Source of the DNA: Bacteroidota bacterium
Lineage (GTDB): Bacteria > Bacteroidota > Bacteroidia > Chitinophagales > Chitinophagaceae
DNA length: 64,000 bases
Direction: 5' to 3'
NCBI GenBank assembly: GCA_018267955.1
Contig: JAFDXL010000005.1
Span: 62,001-126,000, forward strand
How positions within the stretch are numbered: the first letter of the stretch is position 1; each line of letters starts with the position of its first letter. Both the position numbers and the translations under genes were made by a program. Shown one piece after another: positions 33,777 to 64,000 of the stretch. The notes beneath the pieces are model-generated. The model was not told the DNA's origin, ran no database searches, and was given only the letters and a program-made list of their open reading frames with translations.

Positions 33777-36700
33777 ATGTTTATGAAAAGAAACTCTATT
33801 TTACTACTGCTTATGGTAGTGCTGATGTCGGTCAGGGCCGGTGCTCAGATCACAACCTACTCGCGCACCGTGTTAACAGGCCAGGCCTACAACTCTATCT
33901 CCAGCGGAACCGTTGTTTCCGATGCTGATTTTACGACCACACCCGGAGATGATGATGACGGTGCTTTTACATTGACACTTCCGTTCACATTTACCTATAA
34001 TGGTACGGGATACACTACGGTCACTTTTTGCACCAACGGCTGGATTGCTTTTAACGACCAAACCAGTGTTATAGCTACAAACAATGGTAATGTATCATCT
34101 GACTTATTCACAAGCAGTGACCCAAAGCTGGTGCTCGCACCTTGGTTTGGTGATATGAATGCCAACTTTGATAATTCCTCACCAGGTATCATGCAATACG
34201 GCAGTATAGGTACTGATATTTATGCATTTGAGTGGTACCAGGCATCTGGTGATGGCGCAAATGAATCATCCACTAACCTGGTGTCTTTCATGGTTAAGCT
34301 ATACGGGCCAAGTTCTTCTAACCCGGGCAGAATAGAGTTTTGCTATGGCGCTGCTACGGACCCAGGTAACATTGTTTTGGGCAATCGTAATGGCGATTGG
34401 ACCATCGGTATTAAAGATGCTACCGGCGGATCCAGGCACTTTATAAACGCACTGGATAATTCATTTACTTCTACAGCTACTGTAACAGCGTTCCCCGATA
34501 GCGGTACTGTTTACCAGTTCAATCCGCCACCGGCCTGTACCGGCACACCTACTCCGGGTGCACTGGCAACTACCAATGCTGTAGTTTGTTCCTCTGACAA
34601 CTTCACCCTATCTATGGCTAATGTTATCATGGAAGGTGATCTTACCTATCAGTGGGAAAAAAATACAGGTAGCGGCTGGTCTGCTATCTCATCTAATGGT
34701 ACTAATGAAACATATACCGGTACGCAGTCAGCTTCAGCCTGGTACAGGCTGGCCGTTACCTGCGGTAACAGCAGCGCTACCGGCTATTCCGATTCTATAT
34801 ACGTGTCGCATGTTAGCAGTTGCTATTGCCACCCTACCACAACAAATGGCTGCCAATATGGCGACCGTCTTAATGAGGTAAAATTAAATACGCTTGATAA
34901 TATATCAGACTGCAGCGCTAATAATCAGAGTACAGACTACGGTGCAACCGCAGGTATTACAACACTCGGCCTGGGCCGTACTTATACAATGACAACAAAC
35001 GTTGGAGACGGTGGTACCGAATATGTTTCTGCCTGGATAGATTTTGATCATAGCGGCACTTTTGATGCCAGTGAATATTTCTTTATTGGCAGTGGCGACG
35101 ATAGTGGTCCTATCTCATCAGACATTACCATACCTACATCCGCAAGCCTTGGATATACCAAAATGCGCGTACGCGTACGCTGGGATAACGAACCAACAGA
35201 TGCATGCTCTAACCGTTACAGCTATGGAGAAACCGAGGATTATGATGTAAACATCGCTTGTCTTGCTCCCCTGGCCGATCCATTGGCGGCTAATACTTAT
35301 GTATGCCCAGGCGACGCGGCAGTTTTCACTGCTAAAGGCATTGGCGCAGGCATTACCTACAAATGGCAGGAAAGCCAGGATGGCGGCACTACATGGAATA
35401 TGCTTGCCGATGCCGGCGACTATAGCGGTACGTCTACCAACGAGCTGACAGTGTCTAACGCAACTTCTACTTACAACAATTATCAATACCGTGCTATTGT
35501 TTATTCTTCCTGCAACCCCGATAGTGCATTTACCGCTCCGTCTGTTCTAAACATCAATGCAACACCGGTAATAGGCACAGACCCTGTCGATGTTGCTGTA
35601 TGTGCTACGGACAATGCCAGCTTCACAGCAGCTGCAACCGGTGGCATCATCACTTATCAATGGCAGGAAAGCCAGGATGGTGGCATCACATGGGCAGATT
35701 TGAGCGATGACGCTACTTATAATGGTGTCACAACAGGTCAATTGGATATCACAGGTACTACAGATGCCATGAACGGTTACAAATACCGTGTTGTGGCAGA
35801 CAATAGCTGTTTTACTGCTAACTCAGCAACCGCTACGCTTACGGTAAATCCGCTTCCTAAGATCACCGCGGACCCTGTAACAACTACTATCTGTCCAAAC
35901 GCAAGTACATCGTTCACGGCTGCTGCTTCAGGGCTCGGCCTTTCTTACCGGTGGCAGGTAGATGACGGTAGTGGCTGGGTAAATCTTTCTAACAATACTA
36001 CATATAGCAATGTAACCACTAATACGCTCACAATCACCAACGCACCATATACATTTAGTGGTTATAAATATCGTGTGATAGCTACCAGCAGCGTTTGCTC
36101 GCCACCGGCAGCATCTGCACCTGCTACAATGTATGTTACAAACGACATCAATGTTACGCTGCAGCCCGGTAACACAAGTGTTTGTGCTAATACGTCAGCT
36201 ACCTTCTCTACCAATGCGGTAAGTACCAACGTTACCTATCAATGGCAGGAAAGTACAGACCAGGGTGTTACATGGACGGATCTTTCAAATACAGGCGTGT
36301 ATTCAGGTGTTACTACAGGTACACTTTCCATTAGTGCAGCACCTCTGTCTATGAATGGATATTGGTATCGTTGTACTATTACCAGTGCTTGTAACACAAC
36401 ACACAGCATTGCTGCGGTTCTCGGCGTTTGGGATTATCCTGCTATTACAGGCAACCCATCTGATGTAACTCTTTGCGATGGCCAGGTAACCACATCAAAA
36501 GCTACGTTTGCTATTACTGCAACCGGAAGTAATCTTATTTATCAATGGGAAGAAAGTACAGATAATGGTAGTACATGGACGGCTCTGAGCACTAGCAGCA
36601 TGTATGTTGGTGTTAATACCAACCTACTGTGGATCTGGAATCCTATCCCATCACAAAATGGTAATCTATACCACTGCGTAGTAAGCGGATCTTGCTCACC

Positions 36701-38492
36701 TACAGTAACTTCTACTGACGCTAAGATGACCGTAAATACAAGGCCGGCAATCACTGCTCAGCCTGCAGATCAGTATATCTGTGCCGGTGACGATGCTACC
36801 TTTACATTCACTGCAGTAGGTACCGGTATATCTTATCAATGGCAAATCTTTAACGGATCAGCATTTACAAACCTGAGCAATAATGCTACGTTTAGTGGCG
36901 TAACAACCAATACGCTTACGGTTACCGGTGCTACAACCAGCAACAATAATGACAGGTATCGTTGCGTAGTTAGCGGTATTTGCAGCCCGGATGTTTATAC
37001 AACTACAGTACGCCACTTTATTTCTACACCTCCGACAATTACAGGTCAGCCAGTGAATGTAAACGGATGCGAAACGGGTACAGCTACCTTCTATGTCAAT
37101 GCCGGCGCCATTACTCCATCAGGCTCTCCTAATTACCAATGGGAAGAAAGTGTTGACAATGGTGTAACATGGCATACACTCAGTAATGGTCCAGGTTATA
37201 CCGGCGCTAATGCATCTGCTTTAAATGTGCAGAATGTAAATCCTACGATGGATAATAACTTATACCGTTGCGAGGTAAGTACTACTTGTGGTGCGCCGAT
37301 TATGTCTAATCCCGGTAAACTCACTGTAATATTCTTGCCAAGGGTTGGCTTACAGCCTGTTAATCAAACTATATGCCCGGGTACAAGGATCAACTTTGCA
37401 ATCACAGGAACCGGTACGCATATCAATTATCAATGGCAGGTTGATGATGGTTCAGGCTACGTAGATATATCTTCTTCTGACCCTGCATATATAGGTAATC
37501 ATAGCCCGACCCTGATCTTACCTTCACCAGTTACAACTATGGACAATAATAAATACCGTTGCGTTATAACAGGTGATTGCACCCCGCCTGCTATATCCCG
37601 CCCTGCTCTGTTGAAAGTACACAATCCGGTTACAATCGTTTCTCAAACAATTAAGGATACCGTTTGCGAAAACAATGATAAACGTATAGGTGTATATGCA
37701 AGGGGAAATTCACTGATCTATCAGTGGCAGGTACAAACATCTCCGGGTGTTTATAGTAATCTGGCCAATATTCCTCCATATTCCGGTGCAAATACAGATA
37801 CATTGCGTATTTCTTCAGCTCCGGCTTCTATTTCAGATAACCTGTATCGTTGTATGATTACAGAAAATATCCTCTGCAATCTTAAATTCTATAGCAACGA
37901 CATACCGGTACATGTGGATTCCGCACCTGTAACTAGTCCGGCTACTATCAAGGTTGGTTTCTTCAGTTCGGTTACGTTTAAAGTACCAAATGTTGGTACC
38001 AGCTTCCAATGGCAGGAAAATGCAAACAATACCGGCTTTACAGATATCACAGATGTTAACCGGTTCGATGGTATCAATACCTATGAACTTACCATTAAAA
38101 ATGTAGGATTTGATATGACAGGCAACCAATACAGATGTGTTGTTGACGGCATCTGTCTTGCACCTATGGCAAGTGTACCTGGTACTTTGATTGTTGATCC
38201 GGCTTTAAGTGTTAACAAAGTTACTTCTGCTTCAGACCTTTCTATGAAAGTGTATCCTAACCCACTGTCAGGTACACAGCTGAACATTAGCTTTAACAAA
38301 GCGCTTAAAGGCATTACCAACGTTCGTGTACTGGACAAGTTAGGCAACCTTGTTTACCAGGGCACGCTTACTCCGGGCCAGGCAAATAATGCTTCAATAG
38401 AACTTGAGGCAATTGCAGCCGGTGTATATATGCTACAGGTAACGAATGATAACGATCATTTCAACCAAACGGTAAGCTTTACCAAGCAATAG
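33777..38492 (+). CDS. Giant secreted GEVED/Ig-repeat protein with T9SS sorting domain (paralog A)
   Basis: The 1571-residue surface protein starts with a signal peptide; ATG 33783 (MKRNSILLLL) is an equally likely start. An N-terminal beta domain (about 25-255) is followed by one Ig-like domain and a GEVED domain (about 347-490, ending YGETEDYDVNI). Ten tandem Ig-like domains of about 97 residues follow, each with a Cys pair and a YQWQ-type core strand. The final 95 residues (MKVYPNPLSGTQLNISFNK onward, ending VSFTKQ) form a type A T9SS sorting domain. It is probably an exported adhesin or matrix protein, but ligands are unknown. Each Ig unit matches its positional counterpart in paralog B. 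Confidence 0.88.
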   Translation: MFMKRNSILLLLMVVLMSVRAGAQITTYSRTVLTGQAYNSISSGTVVSDADFTTTPGDDDDGAFTLTLPFTFTYNGTGYTTVTFCTNGWIAFNDQTSVIATNNGNVSSDLFTSSDPKLVLAPWFGDMNANFDNSSPGIMQYGSIGTDIYAFEWYQASGDGANESSTNLVSFMVKLYGPSSSNPGRIEFCYGAATDPGNIVLGNRNGDWTIGIKDATGGSRHFINALDNSFTSTATVTAFPDSGTVYQFNPPPACTGTPTPGALATTNAVVCSSDNFTLSMANVIMEGDLTYQWEKNTGSGWSAISSNGTNETYTGTQSASAWYRLAVTCGNSSATGYSDSIYVSHVSSCYCHPTTTNGCQYGDRLNEVKLNTLDNISDCSANNQSTDYGATAGITTLGLGRTYTMTTNVGDGGTEYVSAWIDFDHSGTFDASEYFFIGSGDDSGPISSDITIPTSASLGYTKMRVRVRWDNEPTDACSNRYSYGETEDYDVNIACLAPLADPLAANTYVCPGDAAVFTAKGIGAGITYKWQESQDGGTTWNMLADAGDYSGTSTNELTVSNATSTYNNYQYRAIVYSSCNPDSAFTAPSVLNINATPVIGTDPVDVAVCATDNASFTAAATGGIITYQWQESQDGGITWADLSDDATYNGVTTGQLDITGTTDAMNGYKYRVVADNSCFTANSATATLTVNPLPKITADPVTTTICPNASTSFTAAASGLGLSYRWQVDDGSGWVNLSNNTTYSNVTTNTLTITNAPYTFSGYKYRVIATSSVCSPPAASAPATMYVTNDINVTLQPGNTSVCANTSATFSTNAVSTNVTYQWQESTDQGVTWTDLSNTGVYSGVTTGTLSISAAPLSMNGYWYRCTITSACNTTHSIAAVLGVWDYPAITGNPSDVTLCDGQVTTSKATFAITATGSNLIYQWEESTDNGSTWTALSTSSMYVGVNTNLLWIWNPIPSQNGNLYHCVVSGSCSPTVTSTDAKMTVNTRPAITAQPADQYICAGDDATFTFTAVGTGISYQWQIFNGSAFTNLSNNATFSGVTTNTLTVTGATTSNNNDRYRCVVSGICSPDVYTTTVRHFISTPPTITGQPVNVNGCETGTATFYVNAGAITPSGSPNYQWEESVDNGVTWHTLSNGPGYTGANASALNVQNVNPTMDNNLYRCEVSTTCGAPIMSNPGKLTVIFLPRVGLQPVNQTICPGTRINFAITGTGTHINYQWQVDDGSGYVDISSSDPAYIGNHSPTLILPSPVTTMDNNKYRCVITGDCTPPAISRPALLKVHNPVTIVSQTIKDTVCENNDKRIGVYARGNSLIYQWQVQTSPGVYSNLANIPPYSGANTDTLRISSAPASISDNLYRCMITENILCNLKFYSNDIPVHVDSAPVTSPATIKVGFFSSVTFKVPNVGTSFQWQENANNTGFTDITDVNRFDGINTYELTIKNVGFDMTGNQYRCVVDGICLAPMASVPGTLIVDPALSVNKVTSASDLSMKVYPNPLSGTQLNISFNKALKGITNVRVLDKLGNLVYQGTLTPGQANNASIELEAIAAGVYMLQVTNDNDHFNQTVSFTKQ

Positions 38493-38869: not shown

Positions 38870-41800
38870 GTGAATGTTATGAAAAAAAGTTCTATTCTAT
38901 TCCTACTGCTCGCCATGCTTATGGCCATGCGATCAAACGCGCAATTGGTAACACTTAGCGAATCCTTTGATGGTACAACATTTGTTCCTTCCGGTTGGAC
39001 TGACCTGCTGACATCTGGTTCCTGCCCGTGGACACGCGTTACATCCGGAAACGTTGGTTATCCCTCCGTCTCAGTAAGCCCCCACTCAGGTGCCGGTATG
39101 GCGTACTTTAATTCTTACAACTACAGCAGCGGCGTCCGCTCTATGGTAACACCGGCATTCTCATTAAGTAACAGGGGCTCTAACTCTGCTTCTGTTACCT
39201 TCTGGATGTTTAGAGATGGCGGTTACAGCTCCTGGTTAGATAAGGTAGATGTCTATATTAATACCAGCGGCTCGGTGTCGTCTGCTACATTGTTAGGCAC
39301 TATCTACAGATCCAGCAGCCAATCTCCATCCGTATCATCCAATGGCTGGTATCAATACACATTCAGCATACCATCATCATTTTCCGGCAGTACCAATTAT
39401 CTTTTCTTCCAGGGTACGAGCGATTATGGTAATAGCATTTTTGTTGATGATATATCTTATACCACTTATCCCAGTGTCTGCACAGGTACACCAACTCCCG
39501 GCAATACAATTACCTCAAATGGCCTTGTATGCTCTACTTCATTAAATTTTACACTCTCTGCACAAAACAGCACACCGGGTACCGGAATATCATATCAATG
39601 GCAAACATCATCAAACGGCACTACATGGAGTAATGTTTCTTCAGGCGGAACATCTGCCACTTATACTACCACGCAATCTGCAAGCACATACTATAGGGTA
39701 GCTGTTACCTGCAGCAATTCGGGCAATACAGGATACTCCAATCCTACACGGGTTATTTCCACTTCCAGTTGTTACTGTACCACTTCTAATGGTAGCGGTT
39801 GTAGTTATGGAGACAGGATAGATAATGTAACCATCAGTACTTTAAATAACAGTAGCGGTTGTAATTCCAATTCGGGTAGTCATATAGATTATGGTGGATC
39901 CGCGGGCATCCCTACGCTTGGCCTCGGTTTTACGTACCCATTATCGGTTACCGGTGGTGATGGGGGCTCGGAATATGTTGCTGCCTGGATAGATTATGAC
40001 CAAAGCGGCACGTTCGATGCCAGTGAATATATTTCAGTTGGTAATTACACCAGCTACTATGGCGATGTAACAGTTACAAACAATGTAACAATTCCATCAA
40101 CCGCAACGCAGGGATATACTAAAATGCGCGTACGTATCCGTTACGGCAGTTCTATCGGCAGCTCAGATGCCTGTACTTCCTTTGGTTATGGCGAAACAGA
40201 AGACTACGATGTAAACATTGCTTGTGTTACCCCGACGCCAACTGCATTACCTGCAACTACAAGCGTCTGCTCCGGAAACAATGCTACGTTTACAAGCACC
40301 GCAACGGGCTTAGGCGTTACCTACCAATGGCAGGTAAGTACCAATGGCGGTAGTACATGGACTAATATAACAAACGGCGGTAACTATAGCGGTGCCACTA
40401 CAAGCACACTTACTGTTTCAAATGTTACTTCTGCTATCAGTGGTAATCAATATCGCCAGGTAGCTTCTACTACTTGTTCCGGCAACACAGGTGCCAGTAA
40501 CGCGTCCACATTAATATTAAATACAAATCCGGTAGTTAATACACAGCCATCTTCTACAACTACCTGCGCTAACTCATCTGCAAGCTTCACTACCGCTATG
40601 ACCGGTGGTACCATCACATACCAATGGCAGGTAAGCACCAATGGAGGTAGTACGTGGACTAACATTAGCAATAGCTCACCATATAGTGGCGCTACTTCCG
40701 CAACCTTAAATATCTCAAGCGCACCAATAGGGTATAACAATTACCAATATAGGGCTGTAGGTAGCAACGGCTGCTTCAATACTAACAGTAATGCCGCAAC
40801 ACTGACGGTCAACCCATTACCGGCAATTACTTCCAACCCAACAAGTACTACTATATGTCCAAATAGCAACGCAACTTTTACCGGCGCTGCGTCTGGGCTT
40901 AGCCTGTCATACCAATGGCAGATCAGTACCAACAGTGGCTCTACCTGGACAAATCTCACAAATAACGCTACATATAGTGGTGCTACAACAACCACGCTTG
41001 CAATTACCAGTGCAACAACCGCACTCCATGGTTCTATGTACCGTATGATAGCAACAAGTAGTGTGTGTGCACCGCCAGCTACCACTACAGCTGCTACACT
41101 GAACGTAGGGAACGGCATCCTGATCACACAGCAGCCTGTTTACCAATATATTTGCGACGGCAGCAATGCCACTTACAGCGCTGCAGGCCAAAGCACCAAC
41201 CTGGCATTCCAGTGGCAGGAAAGCCGCGATAGCGGTGTTACCTGGACTAATCTTAGCAATATAGGCGTTTACAGCGGCGTTACCACAGGAACTCTATCCC
41301 TTACAGGAGCACGAGTTGCAATGAATAACTATCGCTATCGCTGTGCACTATCAAGCGCTTGCGCATCGGCTGTATATACATTGCCGGCAGCGTTATATGT
41401 AGCAACTTTGCCTGCTATTACCTCAAGCCCTTCAAGCACTACTATATGCGATAATCAGGCAGCTCATTTCGTTGTAAGTGCAACAGGGTATTCGCTAACC
41501 TACCAATGGCAGGTAAACAATGGTTCGGGTTATACCAATATCTCAAACGGTGTTATGTATGCAAATGCTACAACCAATACACTCACCGTACGAGGTACTA
41601 ATTCGGGAATGAGCGGATATACATACCGTTGTGTAGTCAGCGGCTACTGTACCCCTTCTGTAACGTCATCAGCGGCCACACTGACTATTAATACTACTCC
41701 TGTTATTAATGTACAGCCTGCTAACAATTTCATATGTCCCGGCAGCAATGCTACCTTTACTATAAATGCATTAGCTACAGGCATATCTTACCAATGGCAG

Positions 41801-43447
41801 GTAAATACAGGGGCTGGTTTTACCAACCTAAGCAACAACAGTACCTACAGTGGTGCAACCTCAGCAACACTCACGGTTACTACACCAACCACTTCGATGA
41901 ACAGTTATAGGTATCGCTGTATTGTCAGCGGCATTTGTTCACCTTCTGTTACTTCTGACATCGCATATCACTTTGTTTCTACGCCGCCAACGATATCAGT
42001 TCAGCCTGCAGATAAGCAAACTTGCAACAATACAAATACTTCCTTCTACATTGGTGCAGGTGCCATTACGCCAACAGGCTTTGTAAACTATCAATGGCAG
42101 CTCAGCCCTGACAATGGCAACTCATGGATTTCACTCGCCAATTCTGGTCCTTATAGTGGTGTAACAACTGATAATCTTAAAATTGCCAGTCCGGACATGA
42201 CCTTCAATGGCAACCTTTACAGATGCATTGTAAGTACCACTTGTAGTCCTTCCGCTACCTCCAATGCAGCAAGCCTTACTATACTTATGCCGCCGGCAAT
42301 AGGCGCGCAGCCGGCAAATGTTACTATTTGCCCCGGTAGCCGTGCAATATTTGCAGTTGGTGCAAATGGCAGCAACCTCAATTATAAGTGGCAGGTAAAT
42401 AATGGTTCTGGCTTTGTAGACATCTCAGGCTCTGACCCTCTGTATGTAGGTAATACAAGCCCTCAACTTATAATTCCACGTACGTCTGTGCCTATGGATG
42501 GAAACCTGTATCGTTGTATAGTAAGCGGTAGCTGCACACCTGCTTTGACATCAAGCGCAGCAGCTTTGAAGGTGCATAATCCAGTTACAATAGTATCTCA
42601 AACTATCGAAGACACAGCTTGCGAAACCAATGAGAAAAAACTGGGTGTGCTGGCAAAGGGTAACGCGTTACTGTATCAATGGCAGGTACAAACATCACCC
42701 GGAATATTTAAGGATCTTGTAAACATTCCTCCTTACTCAGGTGCAAATACAGACTCTCTGCGTATTACGGAAACTCCTGCTTCATTAAGCGGTAATATAT
42801 ATCGCTGTATGATCACTGAGAATATTCTTTGTAATCTCAAATTCTATACAAACGATATTCCATTGTATGTAAATGCAGCGCCACAAAGTACACCTGCGCA
42901 GGTTATCACTCCATTCTTCAGCCCGGTAACATTTAAAGTACCTAATGTTGGCACCAGCTTCCAGTGGCAAGAGAATGTAAATAACAGTGGGTTTGCAGAC
43001 ATTACTGATACTATTCGTTTCCAGGGTGTTAACACCGCGTCACTAACAATCCTCAATGCTGGCTTCGATATGAGCGGAAATCAGTACCGTTGCGTTGTTG
43101 ATGGTGTTTGTAAAAATGCGGTAGCCAGTTCTGTATCTAAACTCATAGTAGATGCTACACTTGGTGTTAATACAGTAAGTAAATCATCCGACATATCCAT
43201 GAAGGTTTATCCTAACCCTCTTGCAGGTGCCCAGTTGAATATCAGTTTCAACAAAACACTTCCTGGCACAACACATGCCAGGGTGCTCGATAAATTAGGT
43301 AACCTCGTGTACCAGGGCACTATAACGCCGGGCCAGTCAAACATTGCATCAATAGAATTGGATGCACTGGCAGCAGGTGTTTATATGCTGCAGGTAACTA
43401 ATGAAGACAGTCACTTCAACCAGGCTATAAGCTTCACGAAGCAATAA
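38870..43447 (+). CDS. Giant secreted GEVED/Ig-repeat protein with T9SS sorting domain (paralog B)
   Basis: The 1525-residue paralog of the preceding protein has a signal peptide (ATG 38879 is an alternative start) and an N-terminal domain of a different type: LSESFDGTTFVPSGW and a late FVDDISYTTY make it a choice-of-anchor J/cleaved-adhesin-like domain (about 24-200). One Ig-like domain, GEVED (about 299-450) and ten Ig-like domains in the same order as paralog A follow, then a T9SS sorting domain (MKVYPNPLAGAQLNISFNK). Ig units nine and ten and the sorting domain are nearly identical between the two. This points to tandem duplication followed by replacement of the N-terminal module. Confidence 0.88.
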   Translation: MNVMKKSSILFLLLAMLMAMRSNAQLVTLSESFDGTTFVPSGWTDLLTSGSCPWTRVTSGNVGYPSVSVSPHSGAGMAYFNSYNYSSGVRSMVTPAFSLSNRGSNSASVTFWMFRDGGYSSWLDKVDVYINTSGSVSSATLLGTIYRSSSQSPSVSSNGWYQYTFSIPSSFSGSTNYLFFQGTSDYGNSIFVDDISYTTYPSVCTGTPTPGNTITSNGLVCSTSLNFTLSAQNSTPGTGISYQWQTSSNGTTWSNVSSGGTSATYTTTQSASTYYRVAVTCSNSGNTGYSNPTRVISTSSCYCTTSNGSGCSYGDRIDNVTISTLNNSSGCNSNSGSHIDYGGSAGIPTLGLGFTYPLSVTGGDGGSEYVAAWIDYDQSGTFDASEYISVGNYTSYYGDVTVTNNVTIPSTATQGYTKMRVRIRYGSSIGSSDACTSFGYGETEDYDVNIACVTPTPTALPATTSVCSGNNATFTSTATGLGVTYQWQVSTNGGSTWTNITNGGNYSGATTSTLTVSNVTSAISGNQYRQVASTTCSGNTGASNASTLILNTNPVVNTQPSSTTTCANSSASFTTAMTGGTITYQWQVSTNGGSTWTNISNSSPYSGATSATLNISSAPIGYNNYQYRAVGSNGCFNTNSNAATLTVNPLPAITSNPTSTTICPNSNATFTGAASGLSLSYQWQISTNSGSTWTNLTNNATYSGATTTTLAITSATTALHGSMYRMIATSSVCAPPATTTAATLNVGNGILITQQPVYQYICDGSNATYSAAGQSTNLAFQWQESRDSGVTWTNLSNIGVYSGVTTGTLSLTGARVAMNNYRYRCALSSACASAVYTLPAALYVATLPAITSSPSSTTICDNQAAHFVVSATGYSLTYQWQVNNGSGYTNISNGVMYANATTNTLTVRGTNSGMSGYTYRCVVSGYCTPSVTSSAATLTINTTPVINVQPANNFICPGSNATFTINALATGISYQWQVNTGAGFTNLSNNSTYSGATSATLTVTTPTTSMNSYRYRCIVSGICSPSVTSDIAYHFVSTPPTISVQPADKQTCNNTNTSFYIGAGAITPTGFVNYQWQLSPDNGNSWISLANSGPYSGVTTDNLKIASPDMTFNGNLYRCIVSTTCSPSATSNAASLTILMPPAIGAQPANVTICPGSRAIFAVGANGSNLNYKWQVNNGSGFVDISGSDPLYVGNTSPQLIIPRTSVPMDGNLYRCIVSGSCTPALTSSAAALKVHNPVTIVSQTIEDTACETNEKKLGVLAKGNALLYQWQVQTSPGIFKDLVNIPPYSGANTDSLRITETPASLSGNIYRCMITENILCNLKFYTNDIPLYVNAAPQSTPAQVITPFFSPVTFKVPNVGTSFQWQENVNNSGFADITDTIRFQGVNTASLTILNAGFDMSGNQYRCVVDGVCKNAVASSVSKLIVDATLGVNTVSKSSDISMKVYPNPLAGAQLNISFNKTLPGTTHARVLDKLGNLVYQGTITPGQSNIASIELDALAAGVYMLQVTNEDSHFNQAISFTKQ

Positions 43448-57434: not shown

Positions 57435-58541
57435 TTATAATTTGTAAAATGCTGCTATGGTTTCAGCCACGTATGCTATCTGTTCTTCGGTCAGCTCAGG
57501 ATACATGGGCAGCGATAATATAGTATCCTGGTAAGCGGCTGCTACCGGAAAATCTTCGGATGTATAACCTAAATGGGAATATGCTTTTAATAATGGCAGT
57601 ATTACCGGGTAGTGCAATGCTGTTTCAATGCCATGTTCTTTCAGGTATGCCATTAGCTCGTCGCGTCGCTCTGCCCTTATCATATATACATGATAGGTGT
57701 GCTTGCTCTCCGGCCGTACTGCTGGCAAGATGACCTCTTTAATATCGCCCAGGTATTTGGCATATAATGCAGCATTAGCTATGCGCTGCTCAGTCCATTG
57801 CAGTATATGAGGAAGCTTTGCCGACAACACTGCCGCCTGCAAGCCATCCATACGGCTGTTAATGCCTTCTATCTCATGTTTATGCTTTACCAACGATCCA
57901 TGATTGGCATACATACGGCATTTATTGGCCAGTACATCATCATTGGTGATGATACAGCCTGCATCTCCGTATGCACCAAGGTTCTTACCGGGATAAAAAC
58001 TAAAACTACCGGCAATACCTGTTAACCCTGCACGTATTCCTTTATACTCACTAAAGTGCGACTGTGCACAATCTTCTATTAAATAAATACCTTTTGCCTT
58101 ACAAAGTTTTTCTATGGCTTCTATATTAGCCATCTGCCCCTGCAGGTGCACTAATATGATAGCTTTAGTACGCGGTGTTATTGCTTGCTCCAGCAAGCTT
58201 TCATCCATACTGTAATAGTCAGGATGAATATCCACAAATACTGGTTGAGCACCGGCTTGTGTGATAGTCTCGGAGCTCGATATCCAGCTGTTTGCAACTG
58301 TTATTACTTCGTCACCGGCTCCGATGCCCAGCATCTTCATTAATATATACAAGCTATCAGTACCATTGGCACAAGCGATCACATGTTTCACCCCGTATAG
58401 TTCGGCAAACTGCTGCTCGAAGGCCTTTACATATTTACCACCTATAAAAGCTGTATGCTCTACTACATCCTGTATTGCTTTATCAATTGCAGGCTTTATA
58501 TCCTGGTATTGTTTCTTCAGATCTACAAAAGGAACGTTCAT
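57435..58541 (-). CDS. WbpE-like DegT/DnrJ sugar aminotransferase
   Basis: The 368-residue PLP enzyme has CANGTDSLYILMKML (PLP phosphate loop), VIEDC-type LIEDCAQSHFSEYKG (Asp to pyridine N), and catalytic Lys in SFYPGKNLGAYGDAG. Full length matches the WbpE/FdtB/QdtB group. Its place beside a Gfo/Idh dehydrogenase and a beta-helix acetyltransferase identifies the WbpB-E-D triad, which converts UDP-GlcNAc-uronate to UDP-GlcNAc(3NAc)A: the aminotransferase adds the C3 amino group. It starts 5 bp after the acetyltransferase stop. Confidence 0.9.
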   Translation of the reverse strand: MNVPFVDLKKQYQDIKPAIDKAIQDVVEHTAFIGGKYVKAFEQQFAELYGVKHVIACANGTDSLYILMKMLGIGAGDEVITVANSWISSSETITQAGAQPVFVDIHPDYYSMDESLLEQAITPRTKAIILVHLQGQMANIEAIEKLCKAKGIYLIEDCAQSHFSEYKGIRAGLTGIAGSFSFYPGKNLGAYGDAGCIITNDDVLANKCRMYANHGSLVKHKHEIEGINSRMDGLQAAVLSAKLPHILQWTEQRIANAALYAKYLGDIKEVILPAVRPESKHTYHVYMIRAERRDELMAYLKEHGIETALHYPVILPLLKAYSHLGYTSEDFPVAAAYQDTILSLPMYPELTEEQIAYVAETIAAFYKL

Positions 58542-58546
58542 TCTTC

Positions 58547-59011
58547 TTAAAGGCTTTTTATTTTCCTGGCCGGGTTACCTGCATATACGCCCGGTTCTGT
58601 AATATCTTTTGTTACTACGGCTCCCGCACCTATCACCACATGGTCGCATATTTTTACAGGTAGGATAGTAGCGTTTGATCCTATAGACACATGATTGCCA
58701 ATATGGGTTTCTTTCCATAAACTTTTATCTCCCCTTGCCGGCCCACCTTTTGCAAACAAGTCGTTTATGAACATAACACCGTGCCCAATGAAACAATCAT
58801 CGCCAATGCACACCAGCTCACATATAAAGCTGTGCGACTGCACCTTGGTGCGTTTACCGATCACTACATCTTTCTGTATCTCAGTAAACGGACCAATAAA
58901 ACAATCATCGTCAATGCGGCAGCCGTATATATTTACAGGCTCTACCACTTTTACATTTTCTCCAAAATGTACGTCAACGATCTTGCAGGATAATATCTTA
59001 GGCTCGCCCAT
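58547..59011 (-). CDS. WbpD-like sugar N-acetyltransferase
   Basis: The 154-residue protein is almost wholly a left-handed beta-helix of hexapeptide repeats (VHFGENVKVVEPVNIYGCRI, FIGPFTEIQKDVVIGKRTKV). GHGVMFINDLFAKGG includes the Asn-Asp pair of WbpD-type enzymes, and the C-terminal ITEPGVYAGNPARKI closes the fold. Members acetylate the C3 amine of the UDP-uronic acid sugar using acetyl-CoA. It shares 1 bp with the oxidoreductase stop, so the triad is coupled. Confidence 0.9.
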   Translation of the reverse strand: MGEPKILSCKIVDVHFGENVKVVEPVNIYGCRIDDDCFIGPFTEIQKDVVIGKRTKVQSHSFICELVCIGDDCFIGHGVMFINDLFAKGGPARGDKSLWKETHIGNHVSIGSNATILPVKICDHVVIGAGAVVTKDITEPGVYAGNPARKIKSL

Positions 59012-60030
59012 TATTTAATATTCTTTGCAGCAGAATATATCTTATCAATGATCTCCACAGTCTTCAATCCTTCAAACGCGCTGGTAGATATGCTGGCATT
59101 GTTGGTTAGCACGTCTATCAGGTTTTCGTACACCTTGTCGTGGTTAGACATCGATCCCTGGTAGTTGCCATAGTTATTGGCTTTATTACCTTCAGGCAGG
59201 TTATCTATCTTATAGTTTTCAATGTTCTGGTATTCCAGTTCGTTCAAATACTGGCCACCGATCTTCACTGTACCCTTCTCTGCAAATATGGTAAGTGACC
59301 CTTCCATATTTTTCTCATAGCTGTTCACAGTATAATTTACCGTACCAATTGCTCCATTGTAAAAAGACAATATAGCAACACCTGTATCTTCAAATTCTAT
59401 AGTATCCTGGTGTGCATAGTTACCGGTAAAAGCCTCCACACTTTTTACATCACCTATCATCCAGTACAGTAAGTCTATAAAATGCGAGAACTGGGTGTAC
59501 AGCGTACCTCCATCTAAATCCTTTGTGCCCTTCCACGAATTTTCGTAATAATCTTTATTCCTGTTCCAGAAGCAACTTAACTGTACGCTGTATATCTTGC
59601 CAAAACGGCCTTCGTCAATTGCCTGCTTTACAGCAGCTACCGGCGGGTTAAAACGATTTTGCTTAATTGCAAACAGTCTTTTGTTTACCTGCTCTGCCAT
59701 CTTTATCATCTCACCGCAATCATACACACTGGTAGCCATCGGCTTTTCGCACAGTACGTGGAATCCTGCCTTCAAAGACTGGATAGAATGTGTTGCATGC
59801 AGGCCGTTGGGCGAGCATATAGATACTACATCTACATCCTTTGCATTTTTCAAAAGGTCCGCAATATTGTAAAATGCCCGGGCATTGTATTTTTCAGCAA
59901 GTGCATCAGCCTTTTCTTTTACAATATCACAAACAGCCACAAGTGTTCCCTGTTTGTTTATATGCTCGGCATGTCGTTGCGCAATACGGCCACAGCCTAC
60001 TATTGCAAAACGAACGTTGCTTTTATTCAT
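59011..60030 (-). CDS. WbpB-like Gfo/Idh/MocA oxidoreductase
   Basis: The 339-residue dehydrogenase has an N-terminal NAD-binding Rossmann fold (RFAIVGCGRIAQRHAEHI), CEKPMATS at about residue 95 (the EKP motif with the catalytic Lys) and a C-terminal substrate domain with DLDGGTLYTQFSHFIDLLYW, where His and neighbouring residues form the active site. With WbpE- and WbpD-like neighbours it is expected to oxidise C3 of UDP-GlcNAc-uronate. ATG 60030 is preferred to TTG 60039, as it directly starts MNKSNVRFAIVG. It begins 1 bp after the HisF2-like stop. Confidence 0.9.
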   Translation of the reverse strand: MNKSNVRFAIVGCGRIAQRHAEHINKQGTLVAVCDIVKEKADALAEKYNARAFYNIADLLKNAKDVDVVSICSPNGLHATHSIQSLKAGFHVLCEKPMATSVYDCGEMIKMAEQVNKRLFAIKQNRFNPPVAAVKQAIDEGRFGKIYSVQLSCFWNRNKDYYENSWKGTKDLDGGTLYTQFSHFIDLLYWMIGDVKSVEAFTGNYAHQDTIEFEDTGVAILSFYNGAIGTVNYTVNSYEKNMEGSLTIFAEKGTVKIGGQYLNELEYQNIENYKIDNLPEGNKANNYGNYQGSMSNHDKVYENLIDVLTNNASISTSAFEGLKTVEIIDKIYSAAKNIK

Positions 60031-60031
60031 T

Positions 60032-60781
60032 TTATACAATTATTTTTTTACCGGTAGGAAAGCTTATCAATACTCCCATACCTTTTTTTTGAAAAACAAA
60101 CATGCTGCCTGCAGCCACAGCAGAGGCGCCTGCTTTTGCAGCTTTTTCCAGGTCATCGAAACTTCCGGCACCGCCGCACGCAATTACCGGAACAGAAACT
60201 TTATGCGATACCTCACTGATCACATCCAAAGCATAACCACTCCAGGTACCATCCCGCTCTATACTGTTGATCATTATTTCTCCGGCACCAGCTTGTTCCA
60301 GTCTTATTGCCCACTCGGCCGGCGTGTACCCGGTCTTTTTCTTGCCTGATTGTGCATACACTTTATTTCTGCCCAACAGATCTTTCTTAATATCTACGCT
60401 ACCAACAACAGCCTGCGAGCCATATACAGCAGCGATCTTATCTATCAAAGAAATATCATCGAATAAAGCTGAGTTAAGTACCACTTTCTCATATCCGCAA
60501 TCAAACACTTTCTTTGCTATATCCCAGCTTTTAATGCCACCTCCGTAAGCCATCGGCATAAATGCTTCTCCTGCTATTTCAGAGATCTTATTATAATCGG
60601 GCTCCCTGCCTTCTGCAGAAGCCAGGTAATCGAGCAACAATAACTCATCCGCTTCTTTCTCATTAAATATCTTTACTGCATTTATAGGATCGCCTACATA
60701 CACCGGATTTTTAAAATTCACTGTTTTGTACAAACCTGAATTGTGCAGCAGTAAAGTGGGAATAATGCGGATCTTAGCCAT
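60032..60781 (-). CDS. HisF2-like protein of acetamidino-sugar synthesis
   Basis: The 249-residue TIM-barrel protein resembles HisF, beginning RIIPTLLLHNSGLYKTVNF and with FKNPVYVGDPINAVKIFNEK, the signature of the AglZ/HisF2 group found in O-antigen loci. The catalytic first Asp of histidine-pathway HisF (in IPCLDV) is absent here, replaced by the LLLHN stretch; the second (VVGSVDIK) remains. In P. aeruginosa, HisF2 works with WbpG and HisH2 to convert an N-acetyl group to an acetamidino group; the same is inferred here. There is no HisH-like gene beside it. It overlaps the amidotransferase by 1 bp. Confidence 0.9.
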   Translation of the reverse strand: MAKIRIIPTLLLHNSGLYKTVNFKNPVYVGDPINAVKIFNEKEADELLLLDYLASAEGREPDYNKISEIAGEAFMPMAYGGGIKSWDIAKKVFDCGYEKVVLNSALFDDISLIDKIAAVYGSQAVVGSVDIKKDLLGRNKVYAQSGKKKTGYTPAEWAIRLEQAGAGEIMINSIERDGTWSGYALDVISEVSHKVSVPVIACGGAGSFDDLEKAAKAGASAVAAGSMFVFQKKGMGVLISFPTGKKIIV

Positions 60782-61926
60782 TATTTAGCAGGGAAAATAG
60801 TACGGTATATTTTCTTTATGGGTTTCAATAAAGGATAACGCTTATCTATCGGCATCTCGTAATCAAAATCATAATGGCTGCGAGGAGGCGTATCCATTAT
60901 AGCCTTGAATTGCTGTTCTGTAAGGCCTAACTTCTTTAATACAAAATCATAATCCTGCCTGAACTGCTCCGGATCATACATTGGCCTTGCCAGCTCCTCC
61001 AACGCTTCCGCTTTAGTTATCTGTCCACCAAATATCAGGTCGCTCAGGTGTGCTTTACGTTTATCTATTTTAAATTTTTCAGGTAAAATATATCCCTGGT
61101 AAAATCGTGTCCAGATACTTTCGTAGTGTTTACCTCCATAATCGCGCCAACCCAATTTTTCCTGTATCAGACTTTTTACTTCTTTCTTGTTGTAAGGAAG
61201 GTTATTCAGAACTGATATCGAATGCACCCCCTTCACCTGCTGATAATAACGTTTTACCTTAGCATCCATAAAAGGAAAAGTTTTCAGAGGAACTTTTCCG
61301 TAGGCTTTGTGTATCGCCTGTATATTCACATGATCGCTCTTAGGATGTATCCATGTTTTGGGCAGTGTATTCTCCGTCTGCACATTGGTACCGCTGAGGA
61401 TGTACTTGATATTATTTTGCCCTGCGAGCCTGTACAAAGTAGCAAAGATCGCATGGTCAGTAATAGCTTCAATATCTACTACTGATGCTTTAAGATATGC
61501 AATCTGCAGATCTTTAAATTCCTCCCAGTTGATCACATAGGTAGACAGATCGAAACCCAATTTGCTAACTATATTCTCAATATTCTTTACTGCCAGTTCG
61601 CTATTCCATCCGTTATCAAAATGTATAGCAAGTGGCCTCAGGCCCAGGCGATGAGCGGTATAGGCTACATAAGTGCTATCCACACCACCACTCAAGCCCA
61701 TGATGCAATCATATTGCTTACCCTTGCCTTCTTCTTTTATTTTTGCGGCCAGATCCTGCAATATCCGTTCTCCTTCTGCATCTTCATGCACGTTTTCTGC
61801 ATAGGCTTTTTTAAACTCGTAATAGTAGTTGCAGATGCCTTTATCATCGAAGCTGATATCAGGATCAGCAATATTATCCATTACGGAAATACTGCACTGA
61901 CGATATGAATTACTTTTTGCCTCCAT
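60781..61926 (-). CDS. WbpG-like N-acetyl sugar amidotransferase
   Basis: The 381-residue PP-loop ATPase has SGGVDSTYVAY at residues 79-89, the ATP-pyrophosphatase loop that adenylates the amide before ammonia attack. The family's usual N-terminal CxxC and CxxC zinc ligands appear as CSIS (Cys11) and CNYY (Cys32), so only one Cys of each pair is kept. The rest (IKYILSGTNVQTENTLPKTW and DYDFVLKKLGLTEQQF) fits the TIGR03573-type amidotransferases of WbpG/PseA/LegG relatives. It works with the HisF2-like protein on a 2-acetamido sugar. It lies 14 bp after the acyltransferase gene. Confidence 0.88.
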   Translation of the reverse strand: MEAKSNSYRQCSISVMDNIADPDISFDDKGICNYYYEFKKAYAENVHEDAEGERILQDLAAKIKEEGKGKQYDCIMGLSGGVDSTYVAYTAHRLGLRPLAIHFDNGWNSELAVKNIENIVSKLGFDLSTYVINWEEFKDLQIAYLKASVVDIEAITDHAIFATLYRLAGQNNIKYILSGTNVQTENTLPKTWIHPKSDHVNIQAIHKAYGKVPLKTFPFMDAKVKRYYQQVKGVHSISVLNNLPYNKKEVKSLIQEKLGWRDYGGKHYESIWTRFYQGYILPEKFKIDKRKAHLSDLIFGGQITKAEALEELARPMYDPEQFRQDYDFVLKKLGLTEQQFKAIMDTPPRSHYDFDYEMPIDKRYPLLKPIKKIYRTIFPAK

Positions 61927-62617: not shown

Positions 62618-62857
62618 CTACGCTCTGGAGCTAATAACAGTTGCCAGGTCTCCTATATTTTGCGCATTCAGAATATCATCAAGTTCAAACTTCATATTAA
62701 AAGTCTTTTCCAGTTCGTCTATTAAAAACAAATTGCTGATAGAATCCCATCCATCTACATCTTTCGCCGCAGTAGCTTCTGTCACGGTAAGTGATTCGTC
62801 TCTGAAAACACGTTTACAAACTTTATTGATTTCCTGTAATACAATATTCTTATCCAT
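62618..62857 (-). CDS. Acyl carrier protein
   Basis: The 79-residue four-helix carrier has the phosphopantetheine attachment Ser39 in DGWDSISNL (DSI rather than the DSL of fatty-acid carriers) and the helix II region LFLIDELEKTFNMKFELDD. A short acidic second half is typical. It differs from housekeeping AcpP and is encoded within the cluster, so a dedicated carrier for an acyl or aminoacyl group is likely. ATG 62857 is chosen over TTG 62866. The GNAT stop lies 5 bp upstream of this ATG. Confidence 0.92.
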   Translation of the reverse strand: MDKNIVLQEINKVCKRVFRDESLTVTEATAAKDVDGWDSISNLFLIDELEKTFNMKFELDDILNAQNIGDLATVISSRA

Positions 62858-62862
62858 TGTGG

Positions 62863-63606
62863 TCAATTAAAATTATAAAATAAAATAAGGCTATTATATG
62901 CCTGATATCCAAGCGAGGTATATAAAGGCATACCCACTTGTGTGGCATGCAAACAAACACACCTGTAGCCTGCATTATAAACGAGCTTTTCAGCTTCTGA
63001 CATCATTATTTTTCCAAAGCCCTTCTTTTGTTGTTCCTGTTCTGTAGCAACCATATAAATCCCAGCTTCATCACCGCAATACACCATTAGAGTTGACACA
63101 GGTGTATCTTTTGTTTTGCCAAGCAACAATTTAAATTTCCCTTCTTTTACGGCATCTAAAAGAACATCTTTCGGAAGTAGTTGTCCTTTAAACAGTACTT
63201 TACTTGCAACAGATATCCACTGTTCTATTGATTCAATAGTATCACACAAACAAACATCCAGATTAGCAAGCTCTCCCCCAAATTGCTTTTCTGTCAGTTG
63301 TTTACTCATATTATACCACCTGGTAACCGGCATAAATCTTAATTCTTTTAAGATCGAAAGCTCGTGATCTGATATACTGTCCTTAAGAATCAATGTTTTG
63401 CAAGTACTTCTGCTAAGCGTCTTCTTCAGCTGTACCAGGTTTGCAGTAGAAAGCTCTCCTTGCTGATTATATACCATAGAAGGCCATTCATTCCCTTCAC
63501 TGGTAATAATATTAAATGGTCCATCATTTACTATGCTTATCTGCTGGTATCGACCGAGATAAGTATATAACGCAAAGAGATTTTCCACAATAACATTGTT
63601 ATCCAT
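62863..63606 (-). CDS. GNAT-family N-acyltransferase
   Basis: The 247-residue protein ends with a GNAT domain (about residues 120-247): VYCGDEAGIYMVATEQEQQ, followed by the acyl-CoA loop KKGFGKIMM (motif A, QxxGxG), then MSEAEKLVYNAG and YTSLGYQAYN (motif B). The N-terminal 110 residues form a second, weaker alpha/beta region that may be a degenerate GNAT or a substrate-binding part. It lies between the adenylation enzyme and the acyl carrier protein, so it may load or transfer the carried acyl group. Specificity is unknown. Confidence 0.8.
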   Translation of the reverse strand: MDNNVIVENLFALYTYLGRYQQISIVNDGPFNIITSEGNEWPSMVYNQQGELSTANLVQLKKTLSRSTCKTLILKDSISDHELSILKELRFMPVTRWYNMSKQLTEKQFGGELANLDVCLCDTIESIEQWISVASKVLFKGQLLPKDVLLDAVKEGKFKLLLGKTKDTPVSTLMVYCGDEAGIYMVATEQEQQKKGFGKIMMSEAEKLVYNAGYRCVCLHATQVGMPLYTSLGYQAYNSLILFYNFN

Positions 63607-63612
63607 ACCTAC

Positions 63613-64000
63613 CTAAACCAATGCTTTCAAAGCTATTCTGTCTATCTTGTTGCTATTATTAATTGGAAATGTCTGCAGGCTTTTTATTGTATGCGGTAGC
63701 ATATAGTAAGGCAACTCATTTTTTAATGTGTTTTGAACCATTTCCACATCTTCGCAATTTTCAAGAAACAAGCATATTTTATCTATTCCGTCCTTATCTC
63801 TATAAAGGGTTGCTATATTGTTAATGGCATATAGTTTTCTAACCGTAGCTTCAATCTCCCCAAGTTCTATCCTATGTCCATTTACCTTTACCTGATAATC
63901 CATCCGACCGCAATAGTACAGGTCTCCCGTTTTATCTTTATAACACAGATCGCCGGTTTTATAAAATAATTCGCCATTAATCTTAATAAAGCTTTCTTCG
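63613..64000 (-). CDS. Amino-acid/AMP-binding adenylation enzyme (C-terminal part only)
   Basis: The gene is open at the right edge; its last 128 or so residues are visible. The frame contains YKTGDL (A7 core motif), then GRMDYQVKVNGHRIELGEIE (A8) with the hinge Asp, and NSNKIDR (A10), the last Lys of which contacts the substrate carboxylate. This identifies an ANL-superfamily enzyme, most like NRPS adenylation domains. Such enzymes activate an amino or other carboxylic acid as an AMP ester and pass it to a carrier protein. The adjacent GNAT, carrier and LbH acyltransferase support an aminoacyl or acyl modification of the glycan. The N-terminal specificity code is outside the window. Confidence 0.88.
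   Translation of the reverse strand, partial: EESFIKINGELFYKTGDLCYKDKTGDLYYCGRMDYQVKVNGHRIELGEIEATVRKLYAINNIATLYRDKDGIDKICLFLENCEDVEMVQNTLKNELPYYMLPHTIKSLQTFPINNSNKIDRIALKALV

Follow-up and report, generated by a model that had tools for sequence, protein, structure and literature searches.

A WbuX-HisF2 operon without linked HisH in a Chitinophagaceae genome, and a glycan HisH that may serve two sugar loci

How does a sugar amidotransferase obtain its ammonia when the glutaminase gene is missing from its operon, and does the absence have anything to do with an altered zinc site in the same protein? The amidotransferases WbpG of Pseudomonas aeruginosa O5 and WbuX of Escherichia coli O145 presumably act with the partners HisH2-HisF2 and WbuY-WbuZ, respectively. 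In the window, a stretch of 64,000 nucleotides from a Chitinophagaceae genome (contig C6:62001-126000), a polysaccharide gene cluster at the end of the stretch runs along the minus strand in the order WbuX-type amidotransferase, HisF2, Gfo/MocA dehydrogenase, hexapeptide acyltransferase and DegT aminotransferase (Table 1).

Table 1. Features of the sugar module in the window (window coordinates).
Feature	Position	Strand	Details
WbuX/WbpG-type N-acetyl-sugar amidotransferase-like protein	60781..61926	-	381 aa; TIGR03573 match
First former zinc half-site CSIS, residues 11-14	61885..61896	-	Cys11 invariant in sample, second Cys replaced by Ser
Second former zinc half-site CNYY, residues 32-35	61822..61833	-	fourth Cys replaced by Tyr
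TAATG stop/start overlap, wbuX TAA/hisF ATG	60779..60783	-	one shared base
HisF2/AglZ-type synthase subunit	60032..60781	-	249 aa; NF038364 match
Gfo/Idh/MocA oxidoreductase, probable sugar 3-dehydrogenase	59011..60039	-	PF01408, PF22725, PF02894
Hexapeptide acyltransferase	58547..59011	-	PF00132; TIGR03570 76.3 bits, below cut-off 160.8
DegT/DnrJ/EryC1 aminotransferase	57435..58541	-	PF01041 375.6 bits

The sequence-only reading had placed WbpG-like and HisF2-like genes at 60032-61926, and both the coordinates and the identities proved right. The first protein scores 283.3 bits against the NCBIfam WbuX model TIGR03573 (cut-off 203.2), matching model positions 3-344 of 344, and has the PP-loop, expected as SGGxDS, in the form SGGVDS at residues 79-84. 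The second exceeds the cut-off of the AglZ/HisF2 model NF038364 (338.4 bits against 310) and falls below those of WbuZ (TIGR03572, 274.9 against 299.7) and the histidine cyclase HisF (TIGR00735, 177.8 against 294.55). Of Asp11 and Asp130, which we take to be the catalytic residues of the HisF cyclase in histidine biosynthesis, it retains only the latter; position 11 is Leu. The remaining enzymes are presumably WbpB/GnnA-like (oxidoreductase), WbpD-like (acyltransferase) and WbpE/GnnB-like (aminotransferase), a gene set that would suit a pathway in which a 3-acetamido sugar nucleotide is made and then amidated. Since the stop codon of wbuX and the start codon of hisF overlap, no gene is hidden between the two. 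A hisH2 just past the right edge or elsewhere in the locus would have spoken against the sequence-only reading; neither the stretch listed to C6:138000 nor a whole-genome profile search revealed one in the locus, and contig C6 holds no HisH over the cut-off. Measured against the three-gene definition WbuX-HisH-HisF2, the window operon thus has two of the genes, and all three are found at a second locus on contig C3.

Two further observations concern the surroundings of the module. It is adjoined at 62618-63999 (continuing into L022, 7613-9091) by genes for an acyl carrier protein, a GNAT-like protein and an amino-acid adenylation (NRPS/DltA-like) enzyme, which suggests aminoacyl or acyl decoration of the amino sugar. 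At 33777-38492 and 38870-43447 the window also encodes two adjacent, long and similar secreted-looking repeat proteins (1571 and 1525 aa) whose C-termini appear related by eye.

The zinc site of the WbuX-type protein reads C11-x-x-S14 ... C32-x-x-Y35, as the sequence-only reading had described it. The tetracysteine motif CxxCxn[GN]xCxxC is given as a family characteristic, with zinc seen in the structure 8WEX, in the available part of PMC10607449. The window protein (CSIS...GICNYY) lacks this motif and is therefore a WbuX-type variant, and not a member under the published definition (PMC10607449). How widespread such variants are was assessed in 184 distinct WbuX sequences (loci L021, L022, L054-L133 and L247-L339, duplicates removed), a sample collected for the most part by searching with the window protein, and biased to its kin. 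Four sequences lacking the N-terminus were left untyped; among the other 180, 102 have four Cys and 78 are degraded. The degraded proteins keep Cys1 in 78/78 cases, Cys2 in 0/78, Cys3 in 46/78 and Cys4 in 1/78, and being related by descent they do not represent 78 independent cases. The sequence-only reading had named Cys pairs that are not conserved in active relatives as evidence against it, and in these relatives, which may or may not be active, the pairs are indeed not conserved. In another class of the phylum, where the family model matched in 21 of 244 genomes, four Cys were present in 27 of 29 distinct WbuX, including all 15 not seen before, which lowers the estimate of how frequent the degraded form is in general.

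A WbuX tree of 66 rows, computed after the motif region had been cut out (eight outliers and sequences below 300 aa were omitted, and each Cys state was thinned to one row per cluster at 60% identity), requires ten changes of Cys state, five of them forced by well-supported branches, and a single clade of degraded proteins is rejected (p-AU 0.003). Rows below 300 aa are likewise omitted from the 180-row tree. The Cys state of the window protein persists across a large group in the WbuX tree. From these alignments and trees, decay of the zinc site looks like a separate, repeated and older trait of the family. Unusually long WbuX-type frames of 662-977 aa, possible fusions, were also seen (L319 at 7131, L322 at 6834, L327 at 6753, L281 at 9782, L425 and L426).

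The sequence-only reading had tied the missing glutaminase to the changed Cys site, and this link is not supported. HisH lies in the stretch examined for 59/78 degraded proteins (absent from 13, with 6 near contig ends) and for 74/102 intact ones (absent from 24, with 4 near ends); coupling of the two losses was rejected by a Fisher test that excludes the ten typed HisH-less rows near a contig end, six degraded and four intact (p=0.35). Eight of the 13 degraded HisH-less rows come from the window's own genus. In two genomes of the genus without linked HisH (G326 and G396), both WbuX of the window-type locus have four Cys. A phylogenetic pair test had no power, with only five pairs on starred branches. 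The missing HisH and the changed zinc site are two independent things; the observation is real, and its interpretation mostly does not hold.

A rival reading is that an altered Cys site means altered chemistry: the protein might use a different metal or none, or Cys1 might act as a catalytic thiol. The retention of Cys1 in every degraded protein, over at least five well-supported state changes and with a single origin rejected, speaks for it. However, the other well-conserved positions are common to the four-Cys relatives: the columns conserved to at least 90% there but not in degraded relatives are just the three lost Cys. Moreover, an AlphaFold model of the window protein (mean pLDDT 92.9) is confident through residues 11-40 with no metal in it (about 94 for residues 11-30 and 97 for 31-40), Cys1 could be kept for packing, and the degraded sequences are related. 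We regard altered chemistry as rather unlikely. In the preferred reading, the window protein would be active without zinc. The repeated loss suggests that the site is not a safe test of family membership or, probably, of activity, and it singles out Cys1 for mutagenesis.

The source of ammonia can be approached through the HisH inventory of the window genome (G000), which is 98% complete and of which all contigs were searched. Just two HisH exceed the family cut-off, and one further match of 30 bits lies within a 512-aa frame on C10. The HisH at C1:41011 sits in the histidine operon. The other, at C3:411355, is the second hisH for which the sequence-only reading had advised a genome-wide search, and belongs to a complete WbuX-HisH-HisF2 trio whose WbuX carries all four Cys (CSRC...CNYC). 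The same region encodes a TviB-like UDP-sugar 6-dehydrogenase (555.6 bits, which falls short of the equivalog cut-off, 592, but exceeds that of the general family TIGR03026), a WecB-type 2-epimerase, a DegT aminotransferase and a Gfo/MocA enzyme. Given this enzyme set, the C3 locus probably makes another sugar than the window locus, namely a 2,3-diamino uronic acid sugar.

A search of 15 genomes of the genus for HisH, HisF2 and WbuX found a window-type locus with HisF2, and without HisH in the stretch examined, in ten (G000, G298, G221, G372, G265, G169, G395, G396, G397 and G326). All ten encode exactly one glycan HisH, which always adjoins a WbuX of the C3 type. The C3-type locus is a full trio in G000, G298, G221 and G372, so these genomes have two HisF2 per HisH2. 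In the other six (G169, G265, G326 and G395-G397) it consists of WbuX and HisH without HisF2, and the sole HisF2 of the genome sits at the window-type locus; further matches in these split genomes reach at most 29.5 bits for the HisF family and 30.2 bits for HisH. The distance between the two subunits is about 651 kb round the circle in the complete chromosome of G169 (CP075895.1, 3,322,193 bases; HisH at 309129, HisF2 at 2979252) and about 252, 203 and 197 kb on one contig in G265, G326 and G395, respectively, and the two lie on separate contigs in G396 and G397. As for the remaining genomes, G094, G393 and G398 have only the C3-type trio, and G394 has HisH and a C3-type WbuX with no HisF2 over the cut-off and no window-type locus, an absence that is unsure at 91% completeness. 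The genome search of G350 gave no HisH, HisF2 or WbuX over the cut-offs. In the WbuX tree, from which the G396 row is absent, C3-type rows from the split genomes cluster with that of G394 in one clade (support 97), so the loss of HisF2 at the C3-type locus was probably a single event and not six. One contig of 11,379 bases, JANLJF010000005.1 (L287), is titled Azovibrio restrictus, and its length and match are as in G221, which suggests a mislabelled or mixed assembly.

Gene order and trees bear on how the arrangement arose. The nearest relatives outside the genus have the order WbuX-HisH-HisF, mostly abutting or overlapping, with exceptional gaps of 444 bp (L122), 46 bp (L296) and 2122 bp (L132). 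Within the genus, WbuX and HisF are spaced by -1 to +8 bp in eight of the ten loci; G326 and G396 have two WbuX plus HisF2 at spacings of 1.1-4.9 kb. In a quick HisF tree the window-type HisF2 of the genus form one group (support 86), separate from the C3-type HisF2 (support 100). Similarly, the genus HisH form one group in a quick HisH tree (support 96), separate from the HisH of window-type loci elsewhere. The two lineages thus stay separate in both trees, and the loss of HisH in the genus may have been one event.

The residues R5, E46, K99 and E167 of Thermotoga maritima HisF, which we take to form the ammonia gate, are all kept in the window protein (the last as E168). They are present in 13/13 HisF2 without HisH in the stretch, one of which (L068) has a stretch ending 627 bases away, and in 110-112 of the 112 with HisH, although they could be kept for fold stability instead. 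Departures at 48 conserved sites amount to 2.1% without HisH (n=13) and 2.6% with it (n=112), and relaxation at conserved positions is rejected. No Asp occurs at position 11 among the letters listed for either group, so neither has the look of histidine cyclases. At position 184, where most other sequences have Asp, 10 of the 13 HisH-less HisF2 deviate, but so do some HisH-bearing relatives, and the position was set aside. On the glutaminase side, the catalytic Cys of HisH is present in 134/134 ORFs (126 distinct), and its His and Glu in all 133 that are readable. Selection on the genes is strong where measured: dN/dS between the window genome and G298 is 0.025 for WbuX, 0.049 for HisF2 and 0.016 for the C3 HisH (dS 0.75-1.66), and the less saturated pair G221 and G372 gives 0.093 for WbuX and 0.020 for HisF2, within an overall range of 0.016-0.093 in which dS is near or past saturation for most pairs.

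On sequence evidence, we consider it probable that the acetamidino-type sugar module in the window is active and receives its glutaminase in trans, and that decay of the zinc site is a separate matter. The dehydrogenase, aminotransferase and acyltransferase encoded nearby would make a 3-acetamido sugar nucleotide, and WbuX, with ATP bound at its PP-loop, would activate the N-acetyl carbonyl of this compound. Ammonia would come from a HisH-HisF2 pair in which the window HisF2, with its gate residues kept, docks to the HisH2 encoded on C3. In an ancestor within the genus, hisH would have been removed cleanly from the window-type operon when the HisH2 of the C3-type locus already sufficed for the two; hisF would then have disappeared from the C3-type locus in one clade of the genus, splitting the pair over two unlinked sugar loci. 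The zinc-site decay would be a separate and repeated change that left Cys1 and the other well-conserved positions intact. The complementary absence of genes within the genus is the strongest evidence for a shared HisH2; the likeliest arrangement is that several WbuX ligases draw in trans on one HisH-HisF2 source of ammonia. Genomes whose sole HisH and sole HisF2 sit in two separate sugar operons amount to a natural experiment, because there the two subunits would need to work with different amidotransferases, which operons with linked genes cannot reveal.

A broader version of this idea, which we hold tentatively and put at slightly under even chances, is that HisH-HisF2 acts as a genome-wide ammonia hub for two to four acceptor-specific WbuX at separate loci, with its subunits split between loci, and that WbuX in parallel repeatedly dropped the zinc site while keeping Cys1 for a role of its own. 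At six loci (L116, L118, L119, L123, L126 and L128) the stretch encodes just one HisF2 together with two or three paralogous WbuX, of which one is degraded and another keeps four Cys; such loci would be a cis version of the same sharing.

It could also be that the window pair runs without a glutaminase on free cytosolic ammonia, with HisF2 a mere scaffold or conduit. PP-loop ligases such as NH3-dependent NAD synthetase use free ammonia, and that enzyme is among the fold matches of the window model. The window locus has no linked HisH, and in some relatives the stretch examined around WbuX encodes no HisH and no HisF2. Furthermore, the four genomes with two HisF2 per HisH2 are also compatible with free ammonia at one locus, a counterpoint to sharing. 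Against this, the ten genus genomes keep a HisH2, under strong selection where measured, and the gate residues are intact in every HisH-less HisF2. A wider sample points the same way. Twenty genomes outside the genus whose WbuX loci lack HisH in the stretch examined were searched genome-wide (six loci cut by a contig end, L068, L073, L074, L075, L082 and L338, were left out), and HisH is encoded in 20/20, in 19 of them apart from the histidine operon as judged by neighbouring matches. In seven (G422, G630, G780, G789, G790, G791 and G792) a HisH apparently lies about 10-33 kb from WbuX along one contig, as judged by contig number or length, which means that some of the seeming absences are mere distance within one region; in the other 13 it is on a different contig or at least 300 kb from WbuX. 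The one genome without a HisH apart from the histidine operon, G557, has a sole HisH adjoining a HisF of the histidine-operon type, and no HisF2 over the cut-off, a case that weighs against sharing. On balance, free ammonia seems rather improbable as the source.

Of the three mechanisms offered by the sequence-only reading, the one that comes nearest is borrowing of a HisH, there the housekeeping HisH of histidine biosynthesis; the glycan HisH2 of a second locus is the most likely donor. A histidine-operon copy is available in G000 and G298, whereas the other eight of the ten genomes with a HisH-less locus have no HisH over the cut-off except the glycan one and no histidine-operon HisF over 31 bits, which makes the housekeeping enzyme a very unlikely donor. 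Across the genus, histidine-operon HisH and HisF were seen in just three of 15 genomes (G000, G298 and G393), and the remaining ones may, judging from the HisH/HisF search alone, be histidine auxotrophs. Outside it, G781 (L398, 777-2840) has a hisA-hisF-hisIE run with no hisH adjoining, and its sole HisH over the cut-off adjoins a glycan HisF2 and may serve histidine synthesis; the match lists of G782 look like those of G781, and both are perhaps incomplete assemblies. That the locus is simply decaying, its WbuX-like protein no longer functional after losing zinc site and partner, is hardly credible: two of the four motif Cys are gone (three in some relatives) and so is the partner gene, but WbuX and HisF2 are strongly constrained against the nearest genome, the three Cys are the only conserved columns lost, the TAATG junction is clean and the Cys state has persisted across a large group.

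Supply of the glutaminase in trans may be compared with known systems. Among the matches listed, no titles or beginnings of abstracts concern shared or split HisH/HisF in acetamidino systems, subscription journals being mostly outside that scope. A histidine-gene survey of Bacteroidota reports second hisH/hisF copies outside the histidine operon, with three strains named and 91 analysed (PMC8305728, in its available part). It treats the extra hisH2/hisF2 as histidine paralogues, and that part of it contains no split or shared arrangement, unlike the window genus. WbpG of P. aeruginosa O5 and WbuX of E. coli O145 are described in the available part of PMC10607449, and the window has in common with these systems a PP-loop amidotransferase adjoining HisF2 in an O-antigen or exopolysaccharide cluster; it differs in that HisH is at a second locus and the zinc site is incomplete. 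The best structural match of the window model is LpNASAT of Legionella pneumophila (8WEX; TM-score 0.70/0.68, 18% identity), in common with which it keeps the PP-loop. LpNASAT binds zinc by four Cys (PMC10607449, same part); the window protein keeps just two of these, and the site is likewise incomplete in 78/180 relatives of the window-biased sample. Finally, a Sphingomonas exopolysaccharide cluster, as far as the available part of PMC11340318 describes it, brings together the same WbuX, HisF2, MviM-type dehydrogenase, PLP aminotransferase and acetyltransferase as the window, and it differs in including the HisH that the window cluster lacks.
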